Shown: positions 15,936 through 63,093 of the stretch, piece by piece
Layout: the number at the start of each line of letters is the position of its first letter
How positions within the stretch are numbered: the first letter of the stretch is position 1
Assembly (NCBI RefSeq): GCF_030704535.1
Contig: NC_081813.1
Coordinates: 2,442,001 to 2,506,000, forward strand
Origin: Vitis vinifera
Taxonomy: Eukaryota; Streptophyta; Magnoliopsida; Vitales; Vitaceae
Reading direction: 5' to 3'
Length of the DNA: 64,000 nt
Made by a program: the position numbers and the translations under genes
The notes under the pieces: generated by a model
Seen by the model: only the letters and a program-made list of their open reading frames with translations
Told to the model about the DNA's origin: nothing
The model's database searches: none

Positions 15936-18085
15936 CAGAGAGCTCTTTGCTGAAGATGGCGCTAACTTATCCCAAAAGCATGCATGAGTTTGGCCTTTCT
16001 CTAAGTATTTACCATCTTATGTAATGAACTTAAACCCCCCCACCTACCCATCTTTGATGTACAAAGATGATGGGTTAGTTAATAAAACGCCATCCTTGTG
16101 CCAAAATCTCTTTGTTGTTTCAAAACCTTGCTGCCCACATCCCACATTGGCCTCCCAGTGAGCCTGGCTCTCCTGGGTTTTCCTTTAGAAGGTAGAGCAA
16201 ATGCATGGGCTGCTTCTTGAGGTGCTCGGCTTTGAATAACGGTATTAGTCCCGGCCCCTGGGCGCATCTGGGTTGTTGATAGAGATGACAAAGTTTGATA
16301 TAATTAGCCAATACGATTCAAGATTGAGTATAATCGAGATTGGATCAAATTCGACCTATAAAACCTCTTTACTAAGGAGGTTGTTTTTAGACTAATGTGC
16401 ATAGCATGAATTTATTTGAAGTTTGGTTTAGAATACGACGCGAGCCTAATTGTTTGCGAATCATTGAGTTGATTTGGGCTGGATGGATCGGGTACTGCTG
16501 CAATGATGAATGGTGGTCTCAAGACAGATATTATTATGCGGATTTTGTTTGGTGGGGCATGAGTCTGGCACACGTGGGAGTGGAGATGATGGAGGTGCTG
16601 GGCTTAGCCAGCTTGGGGATTCTAGGATGAGTACGAGTTCTAGAAAATATGGGGAAAGCGACCGCTCAGGGTGAAAGGGATAATGGACCCCTCAATGTGG
16701 GGGGAGTGTATTGGGTTGTTGTGAGTAAGGCCATTGAATGTGACAAAACCACTGTTCATGCATGTACATGAAAACCTCGCTGCCACATGTCGCACCAACG
16801 GCCCCTATTCATCTCGACATGTCCCTGTCACTGTAAATTCTATTTCGTCCGGTTCGGTGGTGGTGGTCGCATTCCTCTCCTTATCTTCTTCCATGCCGAC
16901 ATACTTGTCCATTCTCTCTGACCTTGGACCCGACTTTGTTTACTCCGGATTCATCCAACTCATCAATCCAAAATTTCAATCTCCCAATCAACTCAAATAA
17001 TTCAATTCTGGTCAAATTCCGGTCTCGTTTTGAATAGTTGAAATCAAAATCATAATTTTTTTTAAAATAAGATCGATATCATAAAATTTTTATTAAATAT
17101 AAAAGAACTTCTTAAATAAATCAAAATAATTTTTTTTTTAAATAATATTTTTTACAAAATATATTTTTCTTCATTTGATCCTAATTATGGGACAAGTACC
17201 TTTTAAATTAGCAAAATATTTTACTATAAAAGGACAGAGTTTTCTTGGGTAAGTAACTTTTGTCATGAAAAAAAAATCAGAGAGTTAGAAAGTTAGGTGG
17301 GCCCTGAATTTGATGACTTTTGGAGGGTGGAAAAGCTCCAAACATATGAGGCCAAAAGTCCATCAACTACGGCCCATAACCCTCCAATGGCTAACAACAT
17401 TAATGGCCCAAATCCACTTCCCTGTGCGTGACCTGCACGTGACGTGACCTCACAAAACCCCGCAAAACCCCAAAAGAAAGAGAGAAATGGGGGAAAAAAA
17501 AAATATTAATCCAGTGCGGCACATTCACATCAAAGGCGATATGGATCTCCATTAAAATTCCAGAAGATAATGTTAATTAAGAGAGATTCGGACTCAATCA
17601 GATGGTCCCGGTTCCAGCTCTACTGTTTTCATTTCCCATGTGCTTTATACCTATCCCCTCAGCTCTCCCCCCAATCACCTACCGCCACGTGTGAATAAGA
17701 GCGTTGAGTTCACGTGTAAGCCGTAATAATACAATCGAACCCCCTGGCCCCCCACTCTCTCCCGGCTCGGGACCACCAGCCACCCCCCCGGCGCCTAGCC
17801 GCGCCGGCTTCCCCCCTTGAAAGTGATGGCGTCACCCGAGCCGACAAATCACGTCCCATTACCAGAAATAACGCGGGAAAGGGCGGAGGGGCATTAATTG
17901 AGATTTTGACATTCTTCCCCTCAATCACGACCGTCAATCAGGGCTCCGGATCATTAACCAACGGCTCAGATTCAGTGGTCAATCGTAGAACAGACTAAAA
18001 TATCAATTAAGACCCTTTCTATATATATCAATTAATTCTCGGTTGAAGACCCGAAACATCGATTAGTTTTCTTTGATTTTCCGAA

Positions 18086-28300: not shown

Positions 28301-29608
28301 GAAAACCAAATTTTAGTTAGAACATACCATCTTTTTGGTCTGTTTGTGATTGCAGGAGTTGTTTTACTAGATAAACTTCGAGAGCATTGATGATGGGGGG
28401 AAGTGTTGAACTATTGGTTTTATAGATTGAAAACTCAAACTTTTCACTGATGCTGGATGAAATTCTGTACATTGCAGTTGCTTCAAAACTTTCAGGAGTA
28501 AGTGGTCCATGCCATAAATTTCCATTCAGAAAGATGTTAAACTCTCTGGACTCATTTAATTGGAGTTCCTCCACTTCAGCAAAGTACAAATAGATGTAAA
28601 ATTTAGAAGTCGGATCAGTGGACTCCCAGGAGAACTTCAAAGGTTCCATCGTGTTTAGTGGTTTGACGGCAGTGCTCATGACAATAGATGTTAGTTGAAG
28701 TTTGTTGTCATCATCAGTGTCAATAGTACGCGAGGTATTTAACATTTTCCATTCACCCGAGTTGTATGGGAACCAAAAGCGATCACAGTTATCATCTTTA
28801 AACCTAAAACAAGATATTTATACCTCGTTGGGAGACCAAATATTTACTTATAGTAATTAAATAAAGAGAATGTTCACTTGATTCTTCCTACAAAATGCTT
28901 ACCTTATTAATTCATAGGGTGAACCAAAATCCCACCTTGCATAGCGTACTAGTGATCCTGATTGAGTTTCATACATGGAATTATCCAATAACCTTAACTC
29001 TAATGCTGATATAAAAGGTATTCCAGAGTCAGTATTTACAAGACATACATAGATATAATCTGATGACAAGACATGTATGATCTCCTTGCTTATGACACTG
29101 GATGCATTATCCAATTGCACTGACTCCAACATATTTACTCCAAGAATCAGATCAAATTCTGGTAGCTGATTTTTGGCATCGTAATTTCCATACATGAACT
29201 GTGCTCTGATCAAATATTTATTACCTCTGCCTCTTGCAGGTCTTAGGGTGTAACAGTTATTAATTCCTTCAGGGAAGCTTCTGACATTCCAAAGCTGCTG
29301 TGGAAGGCTATTGGTCTTGAATTCAGGTGATATACTGTTACTTATACCAGTATCAATGAAGGTTGCATCTGAAGTGTAATATATACCAGTCACCTGATCG
29401 GTATAGCTGGAATCTTCTGATATCCCACAATCTATGCTTATAAAGCCTGAGAGAAAGAGAGTCATTAGCACCATGCATAGCAAACAAGAGCTGATGTAGT
29501 TATTTTAAAGATTGTGAGTTTCAAACCTGATTGATCCTGGGCATGAACGAGAAATATAAGAGCAAAAGTACCAAGTAATTCAAATAGAGAGCCTTTTAAC
29601 ATGTCCAT
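25359..29608 (-). pseudogene. Malectin-like LRR receptor kinase, copy 1, damaged kinase exons
   Basis: This is a 13-exon SIRK/FRK1-type gene. Exon 1 (29527-29608) encodes MDMLKGSLFELLGTFALIFL, a signal peptide. Exons 2 (28903-29446) and 3 (28328-28803) encode the malectin-like domain from GFISIDCG. Exon 4 is 28052-28190; small LRR exons lie near 27896-27967, 27707-27778 and 27535-27621. Exon 8 (about 27141-27285) has the membrane span in KFVVPVVVSVTAAFIFL. Kinase exons follow: glycine loop [11 protein letters not shown] (26806-27017), [10 protein letters not shown] and LADFGLSR (26027-26216), and the last exon ending at 25359. Compared with copy 2, the exon 10 acceptor near 26682 reads TTATG instead of TTCAG. 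Exon 11 has lost about 12 bp at its 5' end near 26376. The last exon's acceptor has eroded, so that the nearest in-phase AG would delete YHASNR. The ectodomain looks open, but a full kinase is unlikely. A secreted or kinase-less product is possible. Confidence 0.8.
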
Positions 29609-29658
29609 CACCTTCTTCAGATTCTTTTTGCAATGGGGCACAGCAGCTCTGTGGTCTT

Positions 29659-29667
29659 CTTATAAAT
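29659..29667 (-). promoter_or_regulatory. TATA box of receptor kinase copy 1
   Basis: On the minus strand TTTATAAGA lies about 50 bases upstream of the ATG at 29608. The same element, TGATTTATAAGATGAA, is kept about 55 bases upstream of copy 2, and a slightly altered one is upstream of the remnant near 33220. Conservation across the tandem copies supports a core promoter with a very short leader. Confidence 0.6.
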
Positions 29668-29669
29668 CA

Positions 29670-32059
29670 CTTACCTACTTGCATGTCGTCACAGTACTAT
29701 TTGAGCAACCCAGTCAATTCTCCCTGTAGCTATGGATGATAATGACCAAAGGCTTAAATCTATTGGTAAATCATATTGTTTAATCTGGTATTCTAACCTG
29801 TTGTCCTACTGCCATCAGAGGAACTTCTGGGTGGATCTCAGCTGGCAGTAGACGACCTTGAAATTTTCTTGGAGCAACCTTTGCACCTTTTTGTAATTAG
29901 GTTTTATTTATTTATTTTTTATTTCTCTCCCTTTCTTGTAACTATTTGCATTTAGACTTTATTTTCACTTCATTAATTATTCCCTCACTGTCTGGAGTTT
30001 ACTACCTCTATTTGTGTCTCACTAACTGTTGACTAATGCTGCACCTAACTTACAATACACCCCCTTGAAGTTTCAAGTCCCATCATTGAAACAAATGCTT
30101 TCCTCCCCTAATAGAGGAAATCCCAGCTTGGCATTGGAGGGTGATAACCTCCTTGGCTTGGAAAACTGGTTCTTGAGACAAATGGTGCTTGAGCCGGTTG
30201 TTTTGCTTATAGCAGTCTAGTCAGCATGTCTTACATGCCAAGTTTAAGGAAAATTTCTTGTCCACATACAACCTCTATGATGTATAGACTGAAAAATGAT
30301 TACTCTTTTATGTTGTTGACATCCCACCAACTCTATGCAACAAGAAGCAGTCACACCTGACTAGTTAAATCTTAAATGAAAATTTACTCATCTCCTTTGA
30401 GTTGAATCATTCAAGGATATGTTAAAAATTACAAGAGATCATTTGAAAGTGTAAAGAAAAACATTATGTTTAAGATTTTATAGATTGGGGACTTTGTCAA
30501 GTTCTCTCAGATTGGATTGCAAACTTGACTAATCTGTGATCAAACTGTCTGCTTCTTAATTGTCATGAAAAAAAAGAAGAAATAGCACTCCTGTATCATT
30601 GCATGCAAATTGTCCTAGGAGTCACATCTGACAGGGAAAGGCCTGCAAATTCAGTAAATGCAACAGTTTTACTGGCAGGCCATTGTTTGTGACAGTTCAC
30701 CAATTGCAATGGCTGCTGGTGTTTTGATTGCAAAGAGATGAACTAACCAATAGACCATTTCTTTCTCCTGTTTGGCTTTTGATCTTGTAAACAAATGAGG
30801 TGGACAGGAATGTATATTTACCCTTCCCATTTTTGTTTTCACAATTCTAGGCATTATCATATCAGTCATATGATGCATTGACACAGTAGTTGATGTTGGG
30901 AAATGCTAATTTCAAAGTTCTGTTCCTCCAACACCTACCTGAGTTTCAGCCTCTTTCGTAATTCATATGCTTACTGACTCCAGGTTGAAAAAACTCAAAC
31001 TGGTGCATTTGGTGTTCTTGTATGGATAATCTATCAGAGTGCTAACTTGAGTTCAAAGCTCACTTTTTTCAGGCTTATCCAAAAGTACTTCTAGAAGAAG
31101 CAAAACTGTTCCTAATTTTCTCAAGATATATTTGCAGTCCATTCTTGGAAACTCGAACTTCACAATATGGGCTGTTCTGCAATGACACTTCAAAATGTTT
31201 GTAATTGCACTGCACACTTTCTGATATATAATTCTGTTAAGAAAATGTTTAAGAGTCTGACGGGATAAATTTATCAAGATAGATGAGTTGAAACAGGTGG
31301 GAAATGGAATTATGGTGCAAAGTGGAAATGTCCCCCACAGGTCAGCTGGAATTAGATGATGTTTCAACAGCTAGAGAAAATATACTTTGCATAAATTGCA
31401 ACATTTGCAAACAAATGTAGAAAAACATAGTTGATGTATACTTTCAATGGCGTTTACTCATGCCTGTGGAATAGGCACAGAGCTTTTTGGCAGTAAATGG
31501 ACTGTTTTAGACACATTGGAAACTCTAGTGAGGTGGCTAATTGGGAAGTACGGTAAATAGATTCAACCAAATTTTTGCCTGATCCAATAGTCTTCCATTA
31601 GTGCAGGAAGCATGTATGACATTTGAATTTTGGGCATTACCTCTAGTCTTTTTGCCAATGATTTCCAAATCAACTTGCTTTAACATTACACTGGTGATTT
31701 AGGATCGAGTATGAACTCAACTTTTCTCTCCCCTTTTTTTATCATCCTCTTGAACCTCCCCTGGAAGTTTAAATATTGGTAGTAGCGCTCATGCATTTAT
31801 CCATTCTCTTTGTCATGATTTTATGTCCTTTTCCTCCCCATTTTCTTATGTCTCCCTCTCTGGCACTATGCAATTTCAACTACTTTTTGAAAGATGAACA
31901 GATCAAAGGGTGAAACAAAGATTCACAGTCCTTTTTAAGCATAACTGTACTACAAGCTACTGACCACTATGCCACAACTTTTCGTGTGCACTGACATGAT
32001 TAATTGAATTATTAACATTAGGAAGAAAAAAGGTTTGGAACCCAACTGAGAGTCATGTA
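29670..32059. other. Spacer of the receptor kinase tandem array
   Basis: No gene is seen. The stretch 30655-30790 is similar to 40585-40765 (shared CCAATAGACCATTTCTTTCT), showing that intergenic DNA was duplicated together with the kinase genes. The stretch 30030-30220 has counterparts in the other spacers (around 33870-34000 and 40100). Short open frames here are chance. Confidence 0.6.
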
Positions 32060-33180
32060 AACTGTACTACTGAGCCAGGGGAGTAGTTCCAGTATGTGGA
32101 TCCAGCTATTTCTGTTAACTGCTGTAATTCCATCACTACATGGTTCATGCTTAGCCTTTTACTGGAAGAGGGAGATACATAAGCCATTGCTACTCCCACG
32201 CCTTTCCAGATAGGATACAGAAAACTGCAACTTTCCTCTCCTCTATACCTATAGCATCAGATGAATCAAGTTTGGCCCACACATAATCTAAATTGTGAGT
32301 GCTGTCCTATAGTCCTATCTGTCAGCTTGTTGTAACAATCAGCAACGGTAAGCTAGGTACTTAACGTAGCCCAGTTAGGCCAATAGTGTGAGAACTAGAA
32401 ATTATCATAGATATTGTCTCCCAACCTAAGAGAGATATTTGTGCCTAAGTGAAAAATCAGATGCTTAGTAATTAAATAAAGAGAATTTTACAAAAATGCT
32501 TATCTAACTAAGCCATAGAGGTGAGCCAAGACACCCTCAAGTAGTGAACCAGTGATGCAGATTCAGTTGGATTATAGAATTATTCATGCCTTAGTTCTAA
32601 TGCTGATGTAGAAGGCTTTCTGAAGCCTGAATTTACAAGGCAGGCATATAATTTGATGAAAGATTATGCATGATCTCCCTTGATTATCGCACTGGATGCA
32701 TCATTGGATTTTGCTGAATCCTGTTTATGATTTATCAAGTCCGAGATGTGAATAGAAATTCTGGTATTTGACCTTCAGCATCATGATTCCAATGCATGGA
32801 CCATGCCCTCATTAAGCATTTATTGCCTTTGTCTCTTGCAGGTCTCAGGGTGTAATAGTTTTTGTACTCCTTCAGGGGAGCTTCTGAAGTTCCAAGATTG
32901 CTGTAGAAGGCTATTGATTCCAAATTCAGGTGATGCACTCTCACTTCTCCAGTGTCAATGAAGATTACATCTGAACAATAATATATGTGAATTACCTTGT
33001 TAGTATATATAGCTGGAATCTTGTGATGTGTCACCTCATTGGTAGTTCTGATTCTTGAGATAGCAAACAGTGGTTGATATGGTTATTCAAAGATTCTGAT
33101 TTTCAATCCTGATCGATTCCTGGAAATAACCAGAAATTTCAGAACAGAGCTAGCAAGTCCATCACAATCTTTGGATCCTT
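32060..33180 (-). pseudogene. Decayed receptor kinase remnant between copies 1 and 2
   Basis: The segment 32060-32220 matches the last part of the kinase C-terminus of copies 1 and 2, with recognisable PAMxxVVMEL-like wording. From 32470 to 33060 it matches the malectin-like exon 2, including NYYTLRPARDKGNKCLMRA at about 32805-32865. A trace of the signal-peptide exon reaches about 33180. LRR, membrane and most kinase exons are missing, so an internal deletion of about 3 kb fused the two ends. Many substitutions and several frame breaks show this copy is older in its decay than the others. It lies in the same orientation as its neighbours. Confidence 0.8.
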
Positions 33181-35272
33181 CTTGCAGACAAAGATGCAGA
33201 GAGGTTTTGTGAATTTCATCTTATAGATCATACCCACCAACCTGCATGTTTCCAAAGGACTATAATGGAATGAATTCTGATAAGCCATTGCAAAGGGTTA
33301 AAAGTTAGTTGGGAAGTCATATTGTTTAATCCAGATATTCTCACTGAAATTTTGGCTTATTGCCATCTGATGAACTTCTCTAGTTGACCTTAATGAGGAT
33401 CCAAGTCCTAGTCAATCATCAAACCTTCTAGGTGCAATTTTTGTAACTTTTTGTGGTTAGACTTTTCATAGGTAAATTACAATTGAATTCTCTCTCACCT
33501 CATTCTTCCTTTTCCCCATTTCTCCTATGAGCTACAGAGGCACTACCTATATTTTTTTCTCTGAACAGACACTGCCTAATGATAAATAAATGTTTTTTTT
33601 TATAGGAGATTAAGCACCTTGGTCGGTTTGCTTGTAGGGCCAACTTTCATGCACCAGAACATGAATAATGGGTTCCAAAAATGTGTATTAGAAGTGTCAA
33701 AGGACAAAATTTTCTAGCTAAGGCATAGAATGCCTAAATAGGCACTCCACCATAGGCATGTTCTCCAAATCCTATCTTGAACCGACTATCTTTCCTTTCA
33801 TTTCTAACTGTTATCTGGTACCATACCCAAATCATAGAAAAATCATCAAAATCTGAAGTAGAGTCAATGAAAACAGATACTTTCCTCCTCTGATATAGGA
33901 CAAACCCAATTGGTACTGGGAAGGCTTAACCTAGTATGGGATGCAAGAAACTGTTTGGCTTTACGAGTGCAATCAATGGGGCTGGAGCACATTGGTCCCT
34001 TTACACCACTCTGACTAGCTTGTCCTCCTTGTCAGTGGGAGGGTGTGCATTTTTTCTACTTTCAAGCTTGAGCTCATTGACTGGAATATGTTTAAAAGAA
34101 AATTTCTTGAGAGTAAGTAAATGTCAACATACAAGATATGTGATCTATATAGGATAAAAAATGAGTACTCTTCATGGTATGGACAACCCACAAACTCTTT
34201 GGTAGAAGAATTATTCTTACCAGAGTAGTTAAAACCTAAAACAAAAATCTAACAATCCTTTTTAAATGAATCATTCCAAGGGTATTTAAAAAATTATAAC
34301 AGATCATTCAACAATGTAAAAAAGAACACTATATTTGACATAGTATAGGTTGGGGAATTTGTCAATTTCCTTTAGATTGAATGACAACTAGACTCTTCTG
34401 AGTTTGAAATGTCTGCTTCATAGTTATTTTACCTTCATGATAATTGCCAAATGTGATACCTATAGCAGCAGATGAATTCAGTTTGGCACAAACATCATCT
34501 AGAATGAAGGGGATTGTCCTGTAATCCTTTTTCTACACGTGGCAACCTTGTTTTCCAGATTCGAGTTTTAATTGCAATATTTCTGCAAGTAATCCTCAAA
34601 TCCTGTTGAAATCTGCAGTTTGACTCAACTCCATTCCTCAACCTGCTTGCAAATTTTATCTAAACTAAAATAGTCTTGTCTAAACCACCTTACTATCATC
34701 CTTCAATGCCTCAAAAACTTCTGCAATCCATTTCTATAGATTGAGAAGCTACAAAATCTCCTACACGGTAAATCTAAGTGTATGGACTATCAAATTTGTC
34801 TTCTCTGTGGAGCTTGATTATTTCCAGTGCCTTCTTTTTTGACTTCCTACTTATTTTTTGCTGTTAATTACAAATTAGGACATAGCCCATTAAATGTTTC
34901 AGCCTTTGATTTCATCCATCCTTGCAATCTAACTCTTTGGAAAACTACTAAAATCATGCTAGTGGTTTGGGAAGTCTATATAAAATTAGGTAATTTTGGT
35001 TTTGCTTATATCACCAGGACCTGGTTTAAGATTAAGTAACTGACATACATATATATATATTTCATTTGCTTTTCGTTTATTGCTGAAAAGATAGATTCCA
35101 AATTTTCTTTCGTATGATTCATTTAACATACATTCATAAGCAACTTAAAAAGCTAGTCCAAGGAATGAAGAAGCCAGGAGTTTTACATGCTAACCCAATT
35201 TCTGGAGAAAACTAAAAAGAGTTTCACATGTACAGGTGTGGCAACCAACAGACCAATGTACAATTTACATTA
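33181..35272. other. Spacer between remnant and receptor kinase copy 2
   Basis: No gene is seen. Parts around 33870-34360 resemble the spacer after copy 1 (30050-30530) and that after copy 2 (40090-40500), again showing duplication of intergenic sequence. Around 34460-34790 there is unfamiliar unique sequence. Confidence 0.5.
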
Positions 35273-38200
35273 TTACTGTGCCAGGGGAGTTGTTCCAGTG
35301 TGCAGCTTCATAGAAACCATATCAGTTGAATCTTTTGATTCAGTCCCTTGATTCCTGGATGCCTCCATTTCCAAACACTGATTTAGTTCCATAACTACAT
35401 AGTTCATAGCTGGCCTTTCAGTTGAAGTGGAAGCTACACAAGACATTGCTACTTCTACAGCTTTCCAGGCAGAATTGATGTCAAAGTCTCCCTGTAGCCT
35501 GGGGTCAACAATATTCTTAATATCCCCATTTGCTAGCATGGAACTAACCCATTGAATTATGTGAGTCTCCTCATGATTTCCAGGAACTGGGGACTGGCTT
35601 GTGATGATCTCTAAAAGAACAACCCCAAAGCTAAAAACATCGCTTTTCTCAGTCAACCTGTTTGATGCATGGTACCTGCAATTCAAAAGATGTAATTAAC
35701 TGAATACATCATATATTCTTCTGTGGGAGCATTATTTTACTACATATATTTCACTTAAACTGAATGAGCTAGGTCCAGGTCAAGTTTCAACAGACAGCGG
35801 ATGTTCTCAAAAGAAACTGAAGAATTAAAAATTTGTAACCTCTCTGACGAAATGTCTATCTACAGTTCTTTCTTTTTATTCAATTAAACAAAGTTTGCTT
35901 TTATTAGGCAGGTTCTAGTAACAATGTCATAACCTTGTTTAGAAATTGAACTCTTCCGCACATAGGGTACAATGAGCATAGATATACTTACTCAGGATCA
36001 AGGTAGCCACGGGTGCCAGCAACTATTGTTGACACATGAGTGCTGCCTTCATTTGGAAAAGCTCTGGACAGCCTAAAATCAGCTAGTTTGGCCTGGAATT
36101 TTTCATTCAATAAGATGTTGGTAGACTTTATGTCTCTGTGGATTATAGGTGGCTTACAACCATTGTGCAAATACTCCAATCCTGCAATTGAATTCCACAT
36201 ATGCTCGTTCATTTAAACCAAAGACAAAGGTTAAAGGAAATGGTTGTACACTCCATTTGCTTTCTGACCTTGTGCTGTCTCCACTGCTATTCTTAGTCTC
36301 TCTTCCCAACTCAGAACATTTGTATTTCTCTCTGCATCCATAAAGAATGATCTAAACCCTATGATTTTATCCAGAAAAGAGGACCTTATCCAAGTGGTGA
36401 ACACAAAAAAGTTAAAAATTTAAAACCATGAACAGCAGCAAAAATTAAAGTTAATGGGTTAAAAATTTATAACCATTACCAGATGGATGCCTCTGTAAGT
36501 CTCCATTGGCCATGTACTCATAGATGAGCCCCATGTTGTTGCCTTCCTTGCAATAGCCAATAAGAGAAGTAATGTTTCTGTGGTGAACTCTCATAAGAAG
36601 TTTTGCCTGAAATTTGTCTCACCATTTCAGTATGAGATTATATTAAAACATAGACTAAATGCATTCATTCCTGCTCTTGTGATTGTGCAGATTTATAAAT
36701 TACCTCTGCCTGAAACTGCTTATATCCTTGAATTGATGATGGAGAGAACATCTTCACAGCAACTTGAGTGTCATCTAGATGGCCATGGTAAACTGTTCCA
36801 AATCCACCTTTCCCCACTTCCTTCTCAAAGTTGTTGGTGATAGTGATGACCTCAGAATATGTAAATTGCTGTTTTTTTGACACCAAAGACCCTTCATCTC
36901 TGTTGGATTCGGAAACCATTTCCTGATCCTTACTAACTGATGATCATCACTAGTTTAATTAGTATATTTCTACTGAAAACCCCTCTTCATGTACAAGGAA
37001 ATTGCATCTTATATGGTCCATATTTAAGTATGAGCATAATGGTTATTTAATACCTTGTTTTCCCCCCCTTCTATGCTTCCAGAAGATAGCCAGTGCAGTT
37101 AAGAGAATGAATAGTGCAGCAACTGATGCCACTATTGGAACAACAAACTTCTTTTTCTTTTTGCATGAACCCGACCAACAAAGATTTGGATTTTCATTCA
37201 CACTTGCATCAACACAATGATGACCATAAATGTAAGTCTTAGAGTTTAGATACTGATATCTTGTAGGTGATATCATCTCATAAGCTGATGATTTGTCTAT
37301 TTTGGGAATATTTCATATTTTTCTATTTTTAACAAAAAGCTTTGGCATAGATGGGTAAAATGAAAACTGAAAAGTGAAAAATAGCACTTGATGGAAAAGA
37401 ATAATGATGATCTTGGTTCATGGTTTTTGACAAAAGGCAGACCTCAATAGCAGTGATCCATTCTCTGATCTTTCAATGAGTTCAACTGGAATAGATCCTG
37501 TCAGCTTGTTTCCTGTCAAGTTTCTTGAAATTCATAGAAATTAACTATAATTAGATCCCCTGTATTCTTACCAAAAAACTTAAAATGTTAGTTTCTACCC
37601 CTAAATAACTTACTGGGCCCTCAACAATGGAAGTTGAGAAAGAAAATCAGGTACTGGTCCAGTTAAGCCATTGTTTGATAAATCCCTGAAATGAGTAAAT
37701 ATTTCAATCATTATTTTCTTCTGAAGACAGGTCAATGTTGTGGTGCCTATCTATAATTAGTGAGTCAATGTCTTCTTCTTTCATGAGAGATTAAGGTACT
37801 TACAGATATTGTACCAACGTTAGATTTGATATAGAAGGAGCTATTTCCCCAGTCAATCCACTTGAGGACAAGTTCCTGAATGTATGTGCAATAATTTGAT
37901 CAAGGGGAAGTTGGGAATATTAAGATGAAAAGTTAGAAGACTTTAACAGGTGTAGAAGGAATTGCAGACTTACAAGGATATGATCCTGGGGGGTTCATGA
38001 CCATCATAGCTGCAGTTAAGACTGTCCCACATGTAAGTTTTAGGGGCACAAGGATCTCCCTGCCAGTTCTTCACTTCTTCTTCACTCCATACATGGATTT
38101 GATGTTCATGATATCATCAACTGTTATCTCCAAAGGTATAGACGCACACATACTTGTATTAATGCATGTATATTTAGTATGGAGCACAACTGATACTGAA

Positions 38201-39513
38201 AAATTGATGATTATAACGACATACCATCTTTTTGGTCTGTCTGTGGTTGCAGGAGCCTTTTTACTCTGTAAGCCTCGAGAGCGTTGATGATGGGAGGATG
38301 TGTTGAATTACTCATTTGGGAGATTGAAAACTGAAACTTTGCTGCACTCTCAGGAACTAGGTCGCGTATTGTGGTTGTGTATAAGTAACGAGGAGTGACA
38401 GGTCCATACCAAAGGGTTCCATTCAGAAAGATGTTAAATTCTCTGGACTGGTTCACTTTGAGCTCCTCAACTTCAGCAAAGTGCATGTAGACATAGAATT
38501 GGGTGGTGGGATCACTGGGCTCCCAGGAGAACTCCAAATGTTCACCTGCATTTAATGGTGTGGCTGCAGTCCTCATGACAATGGATGGTGGTTGATATCT
38601 ATTGTGAGAATTAGCATCAATGGTAAGTGAGGTACTTAACACTGCCCATTTACTCGAATTGTAAGGGAACCAGAAGCGGTTGAAAGCATCATCATCAAAC
38701 CTAAGCAAGATATTTGTGCCCAAATAAAATACCAGATATTTACTTATAAGTATCTAGATAAAAGGAATATTGATTTCATTCTTCCTACAAAGGTGCTTAC
38801 CTGATAAATCCCTTGGGTGAACCAAAATCTGGCCTCCAGTAGGGAACCAAAGATCCGGATGCAGTTGTGTAAATGGTATTATTCAGAAGCCTTAGTTATA
38901 GTACTGATATAAATGGTGTTCCGAAGCCTGTATTTACGAGACAGACATATATATAATCTGATGAAAGCTCATGTATGATCTCCTTGCTTGTAATACTGGA
39001 TGCATCATCCAATACCACTGTATCCCATGTATTAACTCCAAGGTGCAGATCAAATTCTGGTAGTTGATCTTTGTCATCATAATTCCCATACAAGAACTCT
39101 GCTCTGATCAAATATTTATTACCTTTTCCTCTTGCAGGTCTTAGGGTGTAACAGTTCTTTATTCCGTCAGGGAAGCTTCTGACATTCACAAACTGCTTTA
39201 GAAAGTTGCTGGTCTTGAATTCAGGTGCGATATTCTTACTGACACCAGTGTCTATGAAGTTTGCATCTGAAGTATAATATATGTGAGTTTCCTCATCATA
39301 ATCGCTGGAATCTTCTGCTAGCCCACAGTCTATGCTTATAAAGCCTGGAAAAGAGAGAGAGAGAGGAGCTTTAGTACTATCCATAGAAAGCAATTGTTGG
39401 CATAGCTAGTTAAAGATTTTGAATTTCAGACCTGATTGATCCTGGGCATGAGCCAGCAGTATAAGAATGAAGATACCCAACAATGCAAAGGGGAAACCTT
39501 CGAACTTGTCCAT
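35273..39513 (-). pseudogene. Malectin-like LRR receptor kinase, copy 2, several inactivating lesions
   Basis: It has the same exon plan as copy 1. Exon 1 (39432-39513) encodes a signal peptide starting MDKFEGFPFALLGIFILILL. Exon 2 is 38801-39344, exon 3 38225-38700 and exon 4 37974-38120. The membrane span VVPIVASVAALFILLTALAI lies near 37085-37165, and kinase exons continue to 35273. Exon 2 contains an in-frame TAA near 38898-38900, where copy 1 reads ALELRLL. Exon 4 is 147 bp against 139 bp in copy 1: an 8-bp insertion inside GVKKNW near 38070 shifts the frame and brings an immediate TGA. In the kinase, LADFRLSR stands where LADFGLSR is expected, so the metal-binding DFG glycine is arginine. 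The [10 protein letters not shown] loop and [11 protein letters not shown] are intact. Translation would end within the malectin-like domain. The loss of function is seen in sequence; the timing is inferred. Confidence 0.85.
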
Positions 39514-51062: not shown

Positions 51063-52139
51063 TTTTGACCGATCACCGACCACCCCTCAGAAATTCCTTA
51101 CAACTACAAAGGCTCTGTTTCAATAAAGCAACAAACGTAATTGTTTGGATGACAGATTCGGCAATTTTCCCGGGAAAAAACAAGCGAAAGGAAGGACGTG
51201 AAAAATGGATTAAACTGGGTTTTAGGCATTTCTATTTTTCCTTCGCTTTCCCTCAAAATTACCCGGAAACCAAACAGCAAGAGATGAAACTGAAATTGCA
51301 ATTGAAGCTCAACTGATTGTTACTTACAGACCTGCAGCGTGGCAACGAGAGGAATTGGAATTGAAATTTTGGAAAACGGAAGGAGCTGATATGAAAGAGG
51401 AAAGTTTGAGTTGTCTCCTATGCTCGGTTGATCTCGCCACGTCTGAACGTGCTGACGTGGCCAGATCAAAATTCACCTACTACAAATATTAAAATAAATA
51501 ACGAAAGTATTTGTACACGTGTATACCAAAAATTCTATTGCTAGGTATACGTCATACCGAGTGTAAAAATCATAAAAATAATCAAATTTATGAGTTACCA
51601 TTGTTTAACTCACTCAAAACTTTAAATTTACATAAATTATAAATTAAATTATTTTTAAAATGATCATAAATTATAAATTAGTTTATTTTTCAAATGATTT
51701 ACAAAAAATAAAATAAAAATTATTGTAAATTATTAATAGCATTATTATTCTTTTAAAAAGAAAAATCTTACTACTAAGTATGTGGTTTATGTATGGATAG
51801 ATGAGAAAGTGAGAAGTCACCTTGTACCAATTCTATCATGTTTATTTATATCTATTTTCAATTCTATTCTCTTAATCTTTTTTATTTTATTTTATTTTAT
51901 TATTTTTAAAATTTTAAATTGTATTAAAAATAAATATAATATATAAATTAATAAGCATTATAAATATTTATAAAATATATATTTTTAAAATTAATATTTT
52001 ATATATATTTAAAAAGTTAAAAAAACAATTAAAATAATTTTTTATTTTATATTGTATACAATTGAGGGAGGGTAGAATAGGATAATATTGACTTGTCCTA
52101 TTAGCAGAGGACATTCCTGATTGTTCATTGATCACCATA
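51063..52139. other. Promoter side of VPS32 and AT-rich spacer
   Basis: 51063-51420 is likely the 5' leader of the VPS32 gene with a possible leader intron (about 51085-51335). The rest is very AT-rich spacer with no gene. Confidence 0.45.
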
Positions 52140-52156
52140 GTGGCAATCAAGGATGA

Positions 52157-52524: not shown

Positions 52525-55500
52525 TTAGTACCAAAATGAGTTTTGATGTGGTTCAATGGGATTGATAGATGAAGGAACCCCGGCTTGCTGTTGGAGACAA
52601 TATTGGTACCAAGTCAATGAGCCTCGATAATATTGGTTATAAATTCTAACATGCCATGCATATATCTCTTGAGTCCTGCCTACTGCTTCTACATGGATAG
52701 GATACTCAAAGTTCACCCATGTGTTAACGCCAAATCCTTCTTCCATCTGATATGGAATTTGGTATGACATTTGTCTGGAAGGGGAATAATGTGACATACC
52801 ATACTCTTCATCTGTTGAACTTGAAGGTTGACCATAACTCATCACATGAGGAGGGTAGACGTTAGCCTCATTCGAGGAGTCACTAAATTGAGTCCCTATA
52901 CTCATAGATTCAAAACTCCCTGAAAGTAACTCCTCGTTATATGGTTCCATCATTCGTTCTCTTCCTCTATAAGGCCTCCCAATAGCTCCTATGCCTGGAC
53001 CAGCTCTTCTAGAGCCATGGTCTTCATCCTGTGTGCAGTGTGTGAAATCATTTTCACAAGTAAATTGGTTGATTGGATATTGACTATGTCGACGTTCATC
53101 AATATCTCCTCTCCCATTATCACCTCCATCATCAGTTCCACCTCTTGAACCATCGTAACCAGAAGCAGAAGTACCTGCAGCACTAGGTCTACTACTATGG
53201 CCAGCACTTGTGGAGTCAATCTCTTGCTGGGAATATGTCGCATGAAGAGAATCATCAGTATCTTTACTAAAACTTTCAGAGTGAACTTCTTCGGACAACA
53301 CACGTTCAACATTAACTCCAAATTCTCGAGCATGAGCGGCAATTCGTGGATCAGGATTTCCAACTTCGTCATCCAAGTGTATAGGCCTAACCCACTGGAA
53401 CAACTGATTATCTTCTTCTTCACCCACCTCGGCTGAAATGTCAAGGAGATCAAGGTAATCTTTTTCAGCAACTCGATCATTTTCTGCCTCCATATCGCGT
53501 AACTTTAGCCTCATATTATAGTAACAAAACACTAATTGCTCCAATCGAGAGTAAGCCAAACGATTTCGTTGCTTTGTGTGGATGAGAGCAAACGTGCTCC
53601 AATTTCTCTCACATGCAGAAGATGACGCGGTTTGTGAGAGAACTTTGATGGCTAACTTTCTCAATGTAGGTGTTTGATTCCCATACATAAACCACCATTC
53701 AGCTGCAACGAATTTGATAATCATATAAATACTTATGTGGTGAACTTACAATAATAATAATCAATTTTTTCCTATAAAGACTCACCAGGCACCATGGTTG
53801 ACCTTGATGCAATTGCCGCTCGATCACCGAATCCTCTTTTTGCATCTCGAAAAAGTACAAGCTATGTATTCAACATTTAATTTGTTAGTAAACGTTCAAA
53901 TAAATTGATGAATGAAATTATTGTTTTATTGACAAAAATAACAATTTTTTATTCACCTCATTTCCAAATTGACCAAGCGATTCAGTAGTTGGATCTAATT
54001 TTGCAAAAACATCATGGACAGCTTGAAGTAGTTCCGGATCACTACCAACTCCACGCCTATATTGAAATCTTGGATTCAAGAAGTATGCTAGAATAAAATT
54101 TAGTAGAGTTAGTATTTTTTTTTTAAAGAAACTTAAATACAAAGTAAAAACTTATAAAGATATATAGTATTTAAGTACCTGCTGCATGAAGTGGATGTTT
54201 TAGTGTTTTCTGTCAACGATCTTGTATTATTTTGAACATCCAATCTCCAGCTCCTTGACGAATAAGGTTCTCTTTCATCACTTGCATAAGCTCGTACACA
54301 AATGGCATTGTGGGAACAATTTCAGAATCCACAAGTCGAAGCACCACGTATAATGGCTCATATAATGAAACTATATTTGTCAATCTGTCCCAATACGTAT
54401 GGTCAAACAATAATTGCTCCAATTCTCGTCCAAGTTTTGTTCGACTGAGTTTGTGTTGTGCCCATTCATCACTCATAAACAATTTTTTCAAATCAGCCCT
54501 TTTTTTTAGAAGACTGTCAAGAGCAATATAATTGGTAGCAAACCTTGTAGCTCCTGGTCGAACAATGTCTCCACCACAATACTTTCTCATTTGTGCTAGT
54601 AACCAACCATGATTGTAAATGAAGTTAGTTATCTTGCGAGCATTGTTTATCACCTCGATAACATTGGGTCTTTTACCGATGTCTTCAAAGATTAAGTCGA
54701 TGCAGTGTGCCGCACACGGAGTCCAATATAAGTTATACTTCTTCATCAATTGTTTCCCTGCTTTCATGAATGCCGACCCATTATCTGTGACAATTTGGAC
54801 CACATTTTCCTTACCGACTTCTTTGATAATAGTCTTCAAAAACTCATATATATACTTGTAGTCTTTGATATAGTTCGATGCATCGACTGACTTAAGGAAC
54901 ACCGTGGTCCCTTTAGAATAAACCATGAAATTAATAATACTTAATTTCGTGGGCCCTGTCCATCCATCTGACATTATTGTGCACCCATATGTCTTCCATT
55001 TTTCCCTTTGTTGGTTCACATAAGCTTCCATTTCTTTGTACTCCATTTCCAAGTATTTGTTCTTTATTTCATATGGAGATGGAGGTTCGATTCCCATTCC
55101 TACACTTCATATGTAAAACATGTCACAAAATACTATACTTACTAAAAGTATAACACAATATAACATTTGATAAATTAGTAATTACCTGCTTGTTGTGCAC
55201 CAATAATCATATTCTTGAAGTGATGAGACTTTGCTTTTCCGGGTGCGACACTCTCATAAATGAAGAATTTGCTGATTAAGCGTCCCATCGTTTCTTTAAT
55301 TGCACCACCCTTGAATATATCTTTGATATTTTTTTGTTTTGCTGCAGAAGACTTGTAAAGCGAAGGGGCAATAGGGGGTGAATGATGCGAATGTCGCATA
55401 CTCTGTGATTTTCGCATCGTCGACGGTATACCAGTAGAAGACTCTCCCGATTTGCGTTTGCTTCCTACAATATTCTCATGTTGTTCACGTTCCCAATTAG

Positions 55501-55949
55501 ATGCTTTCGAGGCACGAACTGCAGATCGATATGCATCTCGCTCATCTGGGTGCATATCTGTCGGATACATATACACATCTTCTTCCTCAGCATCTTCATC
55601 ATCATCATCTTCGTTTACCAAATGTGTATGATGCGTCCCCATTGTGCCACGTAATTGACTACGAATTTCTTCAATATCAGCATTTTTTTTTTGCTTTTGC
55701 TTTTTGTTTGTCATGCACCAACAATCGTATCTCTTCTTTCACTTCGGGCGGCACTCTTGGACACTTTTTGGTGTTGTTATGCGGGTCCTTATGCATTAAA
55801 TGAGACTTGAATCGTGTGATGCCTCCACTTTTCATTACCAACCCACAAAAATTACAAATTGTTGCATTTCGATTACCCTCAATTGGTGAACAATACTTCC
55901 AAGCCGGATCTCGCCCTGGCATGGCAGAACCACCTTCACTAGCCATGCT
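52525..55949 (-). pseudogene. hAT transposase gene (BED, DUF659, hAT dimerisation), two lesions
   Basis: The gene starts with MASEGGSAMPGRDPAWKYCS at 55949. The BED finger is CNFCGLVMKSGGITRFKSHL with a following MH. A splice donor lies at 55195, followed by exons 55099 to about 54184, 54087-53957, about 53863-53785 and 53702-52525. DUF659 shows TIMSDGWTG and IVTDNGSAFMKAG, the first two catalytic aspartates, and the dimerisation part has SSSACERNWSTFALIHTKQR, with the glutamate. Two lesions are seen. A run of ten A near 55683-55692 breaks the frame between AKAKKK and NADIEEIR, where nine would keep it. A TGA at about 54211 stands where relatives have W after IIQDR. The long acidic, Ser/Gly-rich C-terminal tail is open to 52525. 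An autonomous transposase is therefore not encoded as it stands. Confidence 0.85.
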
Positions 55950-55974
55950 AAATCTATTGCAAGAAAAATACACT

Positions 55975-57189: not shown

Positions 57190-57460
57190 GCTGGAGAGAG
57201 AGGGCCGATTTTCTCAAAAAATCGCCAAAAAATCGGCGATAAATCGCCGATAAATCGGCGATACACGGGATTAATTGGCGATTTTATCAAAAAATCGGCG
57301 ATTTTTCCTGTGTCGCCGATATATCGGCGATTTATCGCCGATTTTTTGGCGATTTTTTGAGAAATATCGGCCGGCCGACTTATCTCCTCCATTTGTCGTG
57401 TCGCCACCCGCTGACACGCGATATATCGGCGATATTTCGCCGATTTTTGCCGATTTTTTC
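57190..57460. repeat. Right subterminal palindromic ATCGGCGAT array of the hAT element
   Basis: More than fifteen half-sites of the type AATCGGCGAT or ATCGCCGAT alternate in both orientations, making nested palindromes such as TCGGCGATTTATCGCCGA. The motif core TCGG is shared with the left array, but the right array is denser, GC-richer and palindromic. Several short open frames on both strands here are by-products of the repeats. Confidence 0.8.
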
Positions 57461-57563: not shown

Positions 57564-58277
57564 TAGGAATGGCAATGGGACAGGTTTTTTTGGGTACCCG
57601 CCCCACCCCTAATAGGACAGGATTTAAATTTAATAACTGGGTTTGGGATAAATATAAGTGATATTTGTTTTTTTGGCTTTTTGCTAAAAGTAATTTAGTT
57701 TTAGAATTTAGGTTGTTTGTTTTTCTACTTTTTTATGACTTATTATAAACTTTTTACTAAATAGAAAAAGCCAAAATATGTAGCTTTTTTTAAATAGAAA
57801 AAATAACATATTAGTTTTTTTTTTACTTTTTAATACTTAATAGAAATAAAATACTACAAAAACAAACAACCTAATATTTAACACTATTAAGTATTAAGGT
57901 TCTATTTAGAATTAAGTAAAAAAACAAATACCACCTAAGATTTTTTTTAAACTCGGGGCGGGTTCGGGTATTGCCCCATCCTGCCCCGCCCCGCCCGGCC
58001 GGTTTACATATAAAATTAATTTTAAAATTTAAAATTAATTTAATTCAAAATTTTATTTTACTATTTTTAATATATAGATAATAATAAATTTTTTTAATAA
58101 AATAAGTTATAAAAAATATAATAATTTTATTATTTATAAAATATATATATTTTAATGTAATTAAAAAATTTAAAAGTAATTTTTAAAAAAAATTAAAAAA
58201 AAAAAAAAAAAAAACTAAACGGGGCGGGGCGGGTATGGAAAGGTGACCCGTCCCGAACCCGCCCCTTACCATTCCTA
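57564..58277. mobile_element. Element with GC-rich inverted ends (GGGGCGGG type), host of a nested MITE
   Basis: The left end TAGGAATGGCAATGGGACAG and the right end, inverted, TAGGAATGGTAAGGGGCGGG match at the tips. Both arms carry CCCGCCCC or GGGGCGGG runs on an otherwise AT-rich background, as in a common plant repeat family with GGCGGGTTCGGG arms. No target duplication was recognised. The MITE at 57658-57935 is inserted within it. Confidence 0.55.
57658..57935 (+). mobile_element. Tourist-like MITE, copy A, nested
   Basis: Starts GTGATATTTGTTTTTTTGG and ends, inverted, GGTGGTATTTGTTTTTTTAC, flanked by TAA on both sides (57655-57657 and 57936-57938). Three-base TAA duplications fit PIF/Harbinger (Tourist) elements. 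It is non-coding and 278 bp long. Confidence 0.6.
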
Positions 58278-58654
58278 GGTAGTTAAGCGTCCGTTGCCTC
58301 ACCATAGCCAACCAAACATGGTTAGGTTGATGGAGACTTTATGAGGGCATTTGAGCCCTGAGAGAGGGCAATCTTGTTCACCTCCCTACTAGCTCTAATC
58401 CATCTCCCATGGTTAACCTTGAACTTCACACTTGGAGCAAAGGTTGAACCCTTGGCCTTGGACCAATCATTTCACATAAGTCTTATTGAGTGACCTTGAA
58501 CTAATTCAATATTTAAAAGAGCATAGTTAAGGAGCCTCCCGATTTAGGACAAAAAATACAGTAGGACCATAATTAATATTGCTCAGGTTGAGAAAGCTTC
58601 AATTGATTGAGAATCGATTGGGGCTGCTTAACCTTAATTGATTGAGTTGACTTA

Positions 58655-58917: not shown

Positions 58918-61089
58918 TTTTAATATTTTCCTCTTGTAGTAGTATGTGGTTGAGAGGTAGTTGAGATCAGTCGAGCACTAATCCATTGATTGAGAATCAA
59001 TGGAGATTTTTGTGGCCTAATGATCACCTACAATTGTACTATTTTTCCGATGACCAGCTCATTAATCAACTAACTAGTTATCAAGTTAATTAAAACCATG
59101 TCTAATGACTAATTTCACCCAAAAACTCCAATTTAAACCTTTACCAAGTATATTTATGTTTACAAAAACCTTGAGCAAATCATTGTAGCAAACTATTAAA
59201 GAGCTTTAAATATTTTTCTTGAGTACACCGACCATCATTTTATTTTCTAATCATCATGGAGTGTACACACCTTAATTTTAGTTTCCATTGTACTTGAGCC
59301 AAAATTACAAACTTCGAATGTTATCTTGTGAGGTTTTTAAACTTGTAAAATTATGAGAGTTGTTTTCAAGTGTGAGATATTACTTAAAAGAAATCATAAG
59401 GGTCTATTGGAGCATTGAATCCAAGTGTCAAATTTTGAAGATTTTCAATTAAAAAAAACCTTGAAATTAGTGGAAAAACCTCAAGCTCAAATTGAAGTAA
59501 GACAGAATGGATATAGATAATTTTTAAACTATTATAAAAACTATGTTTATATGTCTCTATATCTTTCTCTTTTAACTTACAATTAATTTAATTCTTTACT
59601 AAAAAGTATAAAAAAAGATCAATTATCAATTTGCTGTCCTCGGATGTATACGATAAGATTATTTAGCTTGACTTCACATAGTTGAAGCATAAGAAATGAA
59701 ATTTATATTACCCCTTTGATCCACAAACTTTAATATAATGAATATTCTATATGATTACTCACTTTTGCTTGTAATTAATTCTAAAATAATATTGTATAAG
59801 TACTTTGAAATTCAACCATCATGTGGGTATTGAAGAACTGCTTTGTATGATTAGTTGTGTTAGGTTGAACCTATAAAATAATATTATGTAGATACTGAAA
59901 TTCAAAGATCAATGAATCCACTATAGTTAGTATAAATAATTTAACATTGAGCCACACAATAGAAATGATGTGGGAAAGGGAAATGGGGGAGTAGGCAGTG
60001 GTAGGGTATGAGAATTCTTTGGATTGGATGTGGATGGAGGTTGAAGAATATGACAAGAGTGTTATTTCACCTGCTCTTTCCTATTTGGCTTTATTTGACC
60101 AGAATTTGGATCCAAATAAAATTTCCCATTTATTTATTTATTTTTAAATTTATAATAATGTTTAGAGAAAAATAATATTTATAACCCTTATAAAATAACA
60201 AAATTGCCCATTTAGTTATAAAATTTTTGTTAATGTAAGAGGCTAATTAATTTAAGTTGATAATATTTTTAGTTCATCATTTTCCTATTTGTTTTTATAT
60301 TAAAATTGAATAAAAGATTAATCTTAAATAATTAAATAAAAATAGTAGAAATAAAAAATCTAAAATTAAAATTGTAAAAGCAAAATATTTGTGCCCTGAA
60401 GATAAAACAACTAAGATTAATAATTAGCAGTTTTTCTTCAAATCTCTTGATAGATCATGGATATTTTGCTTGTGCTTTTGGTTGTTTAAGCCTTTCTCTT
60501 CCTCTCTTTTTCTTATAGATGAACTAAGGATCTTTCTGTTGATTGTTCTAAAAAAAAATAGTTTTGATTTTTTAGAATAAAAAATGAAACAGCATGTTTG
60601 ATAACTAAAAAACAAAAAATAATTTTTATAAATTTTTTAATTATTTTTACTTATTTTTTAAAGACTAGAATGATTAAAAATAAAGTATTATAAATAAAAT
60701 TCATTTTAAAAAAATATTTTAAAACATAGAAAACAAACTAAAAATGTTTCAAGTTTTCAATTAAATTTTTGTTTTATAAAATATAATATAACAGTTTTTA
60801 AAATTTATTTTTAAAACAATTTTTGAAAATATTTTTCAAATTGAGTCTAATTACGCTATCTAATTTGTACTTTTTTTTTTTTGGTAATACCGAACTCATC
60901 TTTCCAAAAATAGCTAGGTTTTACATAAAATCATAAAGTGTTACAGTTTACCATTATTTTTGGGAGAATGGACTTTTAAAAAATATGTTTTAAAATTATG
61001 GTACATATGCAAAAAACCTCATCATTCCTATTGAACTTTCTTTCAATGTGAAATTTCTCAGCTAACATGTGAGAAAAAACTACACCAAA
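58918..61089. other. AT-rich intergenic region
   Basis: No gene is seen. The stretch 60550-60860 is a low-complexity A/T region with MITE-like wording (GCATGTTTGATAACTAAAAA). At 60453-60490 a short copy of the receptor kinase signal-peptide exon occurs, listed separately. Confidence 0.5.
60453..60490 (+). pseudogene. Stray copy of the receptor kinase signal-peptide exon start
   Basis: GATCATGGATATTTTGCTTG followed by TGCTTTTGGTTGTTTA closely matches the start of exon 1 of the + strand receptor kinase at 63091-63127. Here it reads MDILLVLLVV and then stops. Only about 38 bp match, so it is either a small duplication or a remnant of a longer one. Confidence 0.5.
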
Positions 61090-61136
61090 GTTATGTTTGG
61101 TTTTTGAAAATTACCAAGGAAAGAAAAAAATATTAA

Positions 61137-62239
61137 GGCTATGTTTGGTTCCCGAAAAATGCGAGAGAAAGAAAATTGGAAGGAAAAATGGAAGGAAAGA
61201 AAAAGGTAAGGAAAGTAATATAAATTTTTTCACTTGTTTGGTTATCCATGAAAAAATTCAAGGGAAAAAAAAATTATTTTCTTTTGTTTGCTTAACTATG
61301 AAAAATAAGTCAAGAAAAAATGAAAGGAAAATAAATTCAATAATTTGTCTAATGATTATCAATTTATAGAAAATAAAATAAATTTTATATTCGTATTTTC
61401 TAAAAATCAGAGGAAGACCCAATTTTCCAATCTTCCAAGATGGATTCTAGATGGACCAAATCGAAGATCCTTCACAATTGAAGGGTCTCGAATAAAGCAA
61501 AGCACCAAGCCTGGGAGAGCTGGACGCCGCGGACGACGGGGAGGGGGATGAAGCGATAGAGGAGGGACATGAGATTGGTGGCGCCGAAGATGAAGAGGGT
61601 GGCGGCAGTGGAGAGACTCGCGACAACGATTTGGGGGAGGGAGAGGAGGGGGTCAGAGATGGCGACGACAGCGATGGACTTCATGGGCTGGACAGGCATT
61701 GGGATGCTGAAGAGAAAGCCGATGGAGATGTTGTAGAGAGCCGTGAAGATGAGGGTTGTGGAGAGGTCCAGGTGGTTGACCAGTGTGAGAGTTAGGACGA
61801 TGGGTATGTAGGTGCCCAGGTCACCCACAGAGCCCCCGAGCTCGACTGAGAGAGTGGTTTTGAGACGGAAGGAGCTGAACCACCGCCGGCTGGGGCGGAT
61901 GAGAGGGGTGGTGGTGGTGGTGGTGGAAGGTGTGTCGTGGGCCATGAAGGCAGCACAGTCAAAGGGCTGAGTTTGTGAATTCAGTTTTGCGGTGAGAGAG
62001 AGAGATGGGGGTCAGGGGGAGGGGGGCCATAGCAACCGGTGAAGAGCCCGATAAATTTTCCTTCCTCTTTTTCTCTTATTTTCCTCATTATCTTTAAGGA
62101 AAATAGTAAGAAAAATATTATAATATTTTCCATCGTATTTTTCTTTATATTTTTTTTCCATGTAATCCAAACTAAATAAAATAATTTTCCACATGATTTT
62201 TTTCCTTTTCTTAGCATTTTCCAGGAAGCAAACATAGCC
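61137..62239 (-). mobile_element. Pack-type Tourist/PIF-like element carrying a host transporter fragment
   Basis: The ends GGCTATGTTTGGTTCC (left) and GGCTATGTTTGCTTCC (right, inverted) are followed by similar GAAAAATGC or GGAAAATGC, so about 26 bp of inverted repeat are visible. TAA flanks each side at 61134-61136 and 62240-62242. TAA duplication and a GG(C)nTGTTTGG-type end point to the PIF/Harbinger (Tourist) superfamily. No transposase is present. Its 1.1 kb is AT-rich at both arms and GC-rich in the middle, where a molybdate transporter fragment lies. Confidence 0.75.
61472..61945 (-). pseudogene. Captured N-terminal fragment of a MOT1-type molybdate transporter
   Basis: An open frame of 157 codons from ATG at 61945 encodes the N-terminal third of the MOT1 (SULTR5) family. 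It shows ELGGSVGDLGTYIPIVLTLT, then IFTALYNISIGFLFSIPMPV with QPMKSIAVVAISDP, then LYRFIPLPVVRGVQLSQAW. Similarity ends there, and the last residues AWCFALFETLQL are element-derived. Full MOT1 proteins have about 450 residues and around ten membrane spans; this piece holds perhaps three. The frame is uninterrupted, which suggests either recent capture or chance preservation. It lies wholly inside the Tourist-like element. It could not work as a transporter; a truncated membrane peptide or regulatory RNA is conceivable, but is inference. Confidence 0.8.
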
Positions 62240-62495
62240 TAAGAAAAGTGATTTTCTCTTTTTTTATTGTCTCAAAGAAAATATAAAAAAAATATGAATA
62301 TAATCAAAATTAATTAGAAATTTATACATTTTCAAATTATTTAATCTTTATATCGAATAACTAAAATAAGTGAAATGATTTTGAAGTAGCATATAAAATA
62401 ATTTATTGACTTTTACTTTATTTTTATTTTATTTTATTGTTTTTTCTTCTACATTTCCTCCCAACTTGCTTTCCCTTTCCCGGACCAAACATAAC

Positions 62496-63093
62496 TAAAA
62501 TCTCTATCAGCCTCCTAACAAAAAAAATTTTCAAATTAAGGAAAAGAAAGTAAACAAACAAAATATGAATGCATTAGACTGACTCAAAATTGTTTTTAGT
62601 GGGTTACTTGGAAGCATCCGAGTCTCCATTTCAGATGGAAATTCACTGAAGACATGGGGAACGGAGACAATACTCCAGTGGCCTTTAGGAAGGTCAGGAC
62701 CGCGTTTTCAATGTCCATACAGCTAATGGGGAAAAGGATTGGTGCTGTATATTCCTATCATGAATTAGTCAAAGTCTTCTTTTCTGTAGACTAAATATTA
62801 CAAGCAAAGACTCAGAAAGTTCATGCAACTGGAGCTGGGAGAGAAAGTTCAATTCCAAGACAGTATGAGCTTCAGAAATGGCACAAATACCCTTAACAGG
62901 TGTATTAATATCATAGATACAAGGGCTATTCAAGTAAAATGATGAAAATGTTATTATCAAGATTGGAAATGGAACTTGGTCATGGAGATGGAACAGGTCT
63001 TTTGAGAGCTTAAGCTTAAACATATGAGCAGCAGTTAAATACCGTTGCAGGGGCCTGGCCTTCTTCTTCTGTGAGAGGTGAACTGAATAGACC
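62496..63093. promoter_or_regulatory. Upstream region of the + strand receptor kinase
   Basis: About 600 bp of unique sequence between the MITE and the start codon at 63094. No clear TATA box was recognised close to the start. The open frame on the opposite strand (62769-63095) overlaps the start and is not considered a gene. Confidence 0.4.

Follow-up and report, generated by a model that had tools for sequence, protein, structure and literature searches.

Pack-MULEs and Pack-CACTA elements carry gene fragments between the inverted ends of a cut-and-paste element, and the grapevine locus described here has the same anatomy. For PIF transposons, gene capture is also in print, in grapevine (2008, PMC2528002) and in maize (2022, PMC8903248), and the original prediction's view that capture by elements of this type is less well described has been overtaken by the Pifvine-3 and Pack-PIF elements reported in the relevant parts of these two papers. 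According to the passages on Pifvine-3 in PMC2528002, these grapevine PIF elements often hold near-identical copies of sequences found elsewhere in grapevine, among them exons and introns, and some of the transduplicated sequences are common to multiple Pifvine-3 copies. Pack-PIF elements are annotated in the corresponding parts of PMC8903248, in greater number in maize than in rice, and that paper also supports a model in which insertions lying next to each other fuse into one element when their ends are compatible. Pack-Type capture is also the subject of passages on inverted-repeat elements in a 2026 review (PMC13317346), which do not mention PIF transposons by name.

We analysed a 64,000-nucleotide stretch of Vitis vinifera DNA, referred to below as the window, in which positions 61137-62239 very probably represent a non-autonomous PIF/Harbinger transposon that holds a captured, internally deleted piece of a molybdate transporter (MOT1) gene and that was inserted into an older MITE. 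A Tourist/PIF-type element with captured MOT1 DNA had been proposed in the original prediction, and the ends, the TAA on both sides, a scan of the window, the fit to a published end consensus and a match to PF16983 all support that proposal.

Element ends, target site and enclosing repeat

The element, assigned to the Tourist/PIF-like non-autonomous (Pack-PIF) type by its ends, its TAA flanks and the window scan, spans positions 61137-62239 (1103 bp). Its left terminal inverted repeat (61137-61175, plus strand) begins with GGCTATGTTTGG and its right one (62201-62239, minus strand) with GGCTATGTTTGC, both being delimited by 40-nt pairing: an inverted-repeat comparison gave 80% complementarity over 40 nt between 61136-61175 and 62201-62240, in agreement with the matching ends noticed at the outset. 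At the borders, ATATTAA is followed by GGCTATG on the left and CATAGCC by TAAGAAA on the right. The TAA direct repeat is therefore perfect, with copies at 61134-61136 and 62240-62242, which bears out the earlier observation of TAA on both sides and corresponds to the 3-bp TAA/TTA duplication of PIF/Harbinger (Tourist-type) elements. When compared by eye with the PIF/Harbinger ends given in the passages concerned of PMC2213677, the left end GGCTATGTTTGG matches the MtPH-D end consensus GGCTWTGTTTGG, the right end GGCTATGTTTGC has 11 of the 12 letters of that consensus (again counted by eye), and GGCTATGTT fits the end motif G(N)5GTT. The element has A+T-rich arms, at 61137-61417 on the left (plus strand) and at 62046-62239 on the right (minus strand), with approximate inner limits. 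Their G+C content is 0.245 with the inner limit of the left arm set at 61404, and portions of the two arms match each other inverted at 74-82%.

The window was scanned for pairs of 14-nt ends flanked by matching TAA/TTA, with 5-10 G+C in the left end and a spacing of 80-2500 bp. With at most one mismatch, the pair at 61137-62239 was the sole pair in the window, and 20 Markov-1 simulations produced none. Two mismatches gave 2 pairs against a simulated mean of 1, and three mismatches gave 3 against a mean of 7.8; as these counts are at or below chance, the scan speaks for the 61137-62239 pair alone.

The unit and both copies of its TAA are enclosed by a second pair of ends, at 61089-61101 and 62484-62496, which form an exact 13-nt inverted pair (AGTTATGTTTGGT). 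That the outer ends belong to a single, older MITE from a related family (61089-62496, probable), and that this MITE received the Pack insertion, is a supported but weaker conclusion. Excision of the inner unit together with one TAA leaves about 302 bp. The outer flanks are CAA and AAA, so the target site duplication of the outer element is not intact, and the likeness between the outer MITE and the inner arms is slight, the best piece reaching 76% over 59 columns. The likely order of events is the old MITE first and the Pack element later. It seems quite unlikely that the locus represents an intermediate of cargo growth, in which the inner and outer ends would be similar enough for one transposase to use the outer pair and the gene fragment would move in a new, larger element bearing the ends of another family; if this were so, the model of Pack-TYPE growth by neighbouring insertions would also cover nested ones.

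Two separate truncated MITEs could instead flank a MOT1 pseudogene fragment by chance, in which case the whole would never have been mobile as a unit. This reading, which we regard as quite unlikely, would accommodate the presence of four related ends inside 1.4 kb, and it gains from the facts that no second copy of the element is known and that A+T-rich DNA of this kind often contains MITE arms. However, each arm has an outer end only, the ends match over 40 nt, the TAA is perfect exactly at these ends, and what remains after excising the unit with one TAA is a single short sequence with matching inverted ends.

The captured MOT1 fragment

The core of the element (61405-62045) has a G+C content of 0.568, against 0.245 in the arms, and is thus GC-rich as originally described. 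A minus-strand open reading frame at 61945-61472 encodes 157 aa, of which residues 35-147 match PF16983 (MFS_MOT1) with an E value of 4.3e-21, and host-gene DNA, the mark of a Pack-TYPE element, is accordingly found within 61137-62239. A complete transporter ORF of family length was not found there, as the 157-aa ORF spans only positions 22-135 of the 388 of the profile.

A set of homologs was assembled from the best 80 of 384 relatives and three plasmid loci (of seven matches), and 82 of these 83 loci gave an ORF of at least 250 aa matching at E 1e-5 (L050 dropped out). Piece 1 of the cargo, consisting of the ATG and the first 145 codons (61511-61945, minus strand), is MOT1 sequence: in addition to the PF16983 match, its frame scores 135.7 bits with a profile built from the 82 prokaryotic homologs, and its G+C content by codon position 1/2/3 is 0.538/0.462/0.821 over the 145 codons, as in coding sequence. 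The ORF at 61945-61472 was the sole MOT1-profile match (E<=1) among 2850 six-frame segments of at least 15 aa from the window, and by the same search the parental MOT1 gene is not in the window. The stretch from the ATG to the right arm (61946-62045, minus strand) is probably the leader, that is, the 5' untranslated part, of the captured gene.

Beyond piece 1, translation and homolog alignment point to a second piece (61437-61511, minus strand) that reads GLVLCFIRDPSIVKDLRFGPSRIHL in another frame and would come from further downstream in MOT1, followed by a short and tentative third piece (61418-61435, minus strand), recognized by its translation EDWKIG in the first frame again. Piece 2 alone was not reported by the prokaryotic profile (-5.0 bits, with the best spot at model positions 190-200), and alignment controls were therefore used. 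In 21 of the 82 homologs, the best local alignment puts the 25-residue peptide of piece 2 at one and the same position, 50 residues downstream of the conserved anchor at the end of piece 1; the commonest placement drew at least 21 homologs in 4 of 300 shuffles. Downstream stretches resembling piece 2 are found in homologs L083 (GFIALIFKSPAFLEQLRFGMEWKLPVLADIHDWEIG) and L020 (GLVVLLVSRPSLLAETRVGCSWHLPELLRWADWRVG), each beginning 50 residues past this anchor, and the counterparts of EDWKIG in the alignment are DWEIG (L083) and DWRVG (L020). The best score of piece 2 (43) was equalled by 6 of 1000 shuffles and by 6 of 1000 window decoys, from which piece 2 itself had not been removed, and the best score of pieces 2 and 3 together (56) was reached by none of 1000 shuffles and none of 1000 decoys, from which it had been removed. 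The controls came closer by mean score over the 82 homologs than by best score: the mean of piece 2 was reached by 29 of 500 shuffles and, in sets of 1000 each, by 47 shuffles and 25 decoys, and that of pieces 2 and 3 by 4 of 500 shuffles and, again in sets of 1000 each, by 22 shuffles and 18 decoys. Translations in the two remaining frames gave no signal (286 and 444 of 500 shuffles). In addition, 20 of the 25 residues of piece 2 are like those of a sequence taken to be Arabidopsis At1g80310, a likeness that counts as a lead only.

The MOT1 origin of pieces 2 and 3 thus appears supported, if more weakly than that of piece 1. Since they follow residue 145 in shifted frames, the cargo appears to contain internal deletions, and the last ~12 residues of the ORF would be frameshift products. 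The prediction that the first ~145 residues run uninterrupted from the ATG therefore stands for the open MOT1 piece and has to be revised for the cargo as a whole, which, judged from its translations, appears to be a rearranged MOT1 fragment with internal deletions and not a clean N-terminal fragment. We conclude that the captured DNA would have lost about 50 codons, by prokaryotic spacing, between the first two pieces and a shorter segment between the last two; by the spacing in plants, the first of these losses would be larger. The sequence at the first junction (CAGGCTTGG) would be compatible with loss of the DNA between two GGCTTG copies, one per Gly-Leu codon pair.

Piece 1 together with the junction residue keeps 25 of 32 conserved columns (those shared by at least 80% of homologs), and one of the 7 changes is at the junction. 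Over all conserved columns the proportion kept by the cargo is 0.72; when each homolog is compared with the rest, the median is 0.92 and the lowest value 0.62. This comparison is biased by its prokaryotic yardstick, and as some changes may be old plant differences, the value is a hint of relaxed constraint only. No stop occurs within the 145 codons of piece 1 and its profile alignment is continuous in one frame, so that decay is mild. We infer that the cargo is carried along passively, is decaying and has no function as a protein. It is very unlikely that the captured fragment is functional, be it as a truncated N-terminal transporter or as a source of antisense or small RNA directed at the host MOT1 gene. 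A functional role would be in keeping with the 145 open codons, with their coding-type base composition and with the predicted ability of the strand to fold back through the arms (one predicted structure, no shuffle control), but it is opposed by the apparent internal deletions and frame changes and, within the limits of the prokaryotic yardstick, by the altered conserved columns. It is extremely unlikely that the element never captured MOT1 and instead landed in or next to a MOT1 pseudogene, or that its ends resemble each other by chance. A perfect 3-bp repeat alone is common, but the sole MOT1 profile match of the window falls between these ends (short or divergent pieces would escape the profile) and such an end pair arose in none of the 20 simulations.

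Altogether, the anatomy of this one place suggests capture of a MOT1 fragment by a transposition-associated process. A transposase supplied in trans would move a non-autonomous PIF/Harbinger (Tourist-type) unit, and this unit would capture plant MOT1 DNA, probably comprising the leader, the start codon with 145 codons and two shorter downstream stretches. Internal deletions, possibly at a short repeat, would join the MOT1 stretches and shift the reading frame, and the Pack unit would then insert into an older MITE whose ends are related to its own, duplicating TAA at the target.

Related ends and neighbouring sequences

With up to 3 mismatches allowed, the 14-nt end has 16 matches in the window against 6.84 expected, and no shuffle reached 16 or more. 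At 0-1 mismatch the end sequence occurs solely at the element's own two ends. The 14 further matches all have 2-3 mismatches and include both ends of the outer element; the inner and outer ends make up 4 of the 16, and the remaining 12 are at 2-3 mismatches. The match at 50089 has 2 mismatches, as few as the outer left end. The 9-mer TATGTTTGG occurs exactly at four places, namely three of the four inner and outer ends and position 17338. This extra exact copy at 17338 (CCAAACATA, the core of the element end) is without a paired end in the scan, and a TAA-flanked pair of 14-nt ends at 15843-17726 (TTACGGTTCACACG, 2 mismatches) is at chance level. Around two weak arm matches, at 51500-52150 and 57950-58500, reading of the sequence revealed no element with such ends.

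The 16-mer end has exact matches in two viral contigs (L084 and L085). These were rejected as related elements and taken as chance, because neither contig matches the window anywhere else by blastn (E 1e-3), their ORFs are phage-like by eye and an inverted-repeat search of L085 found nothing. In the viral contigs there was likewise no match to a 27-mer of the cargo and no relative of the ORF. A single match in the PDB (E 0.44) was taken as chance, Rfam gave no matches, and short MOT1-type peptide strings had none in the text of papers.

Among nine window ORFs scanned with Pfam, three have transposon-type domains, at 52.5-56.0 kb, and none encodes a PIF transposase. On the minus strand at 52525-55973, BED zinc finger, DUF659 and hAT dimerisation domains lie in separate ORFs, which we take as the remains of one hAT transposon. 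Many exact inverted 12-mers around AAAAATCGGCGATAAATCGCC form a short palindromic repeat array at 57213-57448, and G+C-rich inverted ends (GGGGCGGGTTCGG and CCGAACCCGCCCC) around an A+T-rich middle at 57955-58265 look like another small inverted-repeat element. By Pfam, the minus strand at 25359-39393 has one ORF of malectin-like type and one encoding a protein kinase; together with look-alike ORFs recognized by eye at 35273-39393, these are probably tandem receptor-kinase genes.

Comparison with described Pack-type elements

The present element resembles Pifvine-3, as described in the relevant passages of PMC2528002, in that both are PIF elements carrying host sequences, the target site duplications of Pifvine-3 being mostly TAA or TTA. 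In contrast, Pifvine-3 elements are 5.8-6.7 kb long with a transposase, whereas the present element measures 1.1 kb and no transposon coding part was seen in it. Its ends are also like the Medicago PIF/Harbinger end consensus sequences of MtPH-D (GGCTWTGTTTGG) and MtPH-A6-2 (GGCTMTGTTTGGATT) in the parts concerned of PMC2213677, where a composite of two related elements is described as well; the word stem 'captur' is absent from the main text of that paper. With the Pack-PIF elements of maize and rice, as presented in the passages concerned of PMC8903248, it shares non-autonomous PIF ends, a duplication of the kind that is mostly TAA/TTA in those elements, gene-derived DNA and local insertions of related elements, and we count maize cluster #18 of that paper, whose small elements had acquired 163 bp of gene sequence internally, as a like case. 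It differs from the maize and rice elements in its longer cargo of about 0.6 kb, in the apparent internal deletions and in its dicot host.

Because PIF gene capture is already in print for grapevine and maize, the event is of an already known kind, a Pack-PIF element with decaying cargo. It is a further clear example of a host gene fragment borne by a PIF-type element, in which the order of events can be read (the old MITE first and the Pack insertion after it, with deletions in the cargo), and it carries a warning for annotation, as the 157-aa MOT1 ORF is transposon cargo and not a gene. Greater importance would follow only from copies with different cargo, from transcripts or from use of the outer ends. 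MULE and CACTA elements have longer duplications and ends of their own, whereas the present element has a 3-bp TAA duplication and PIF-type ends.
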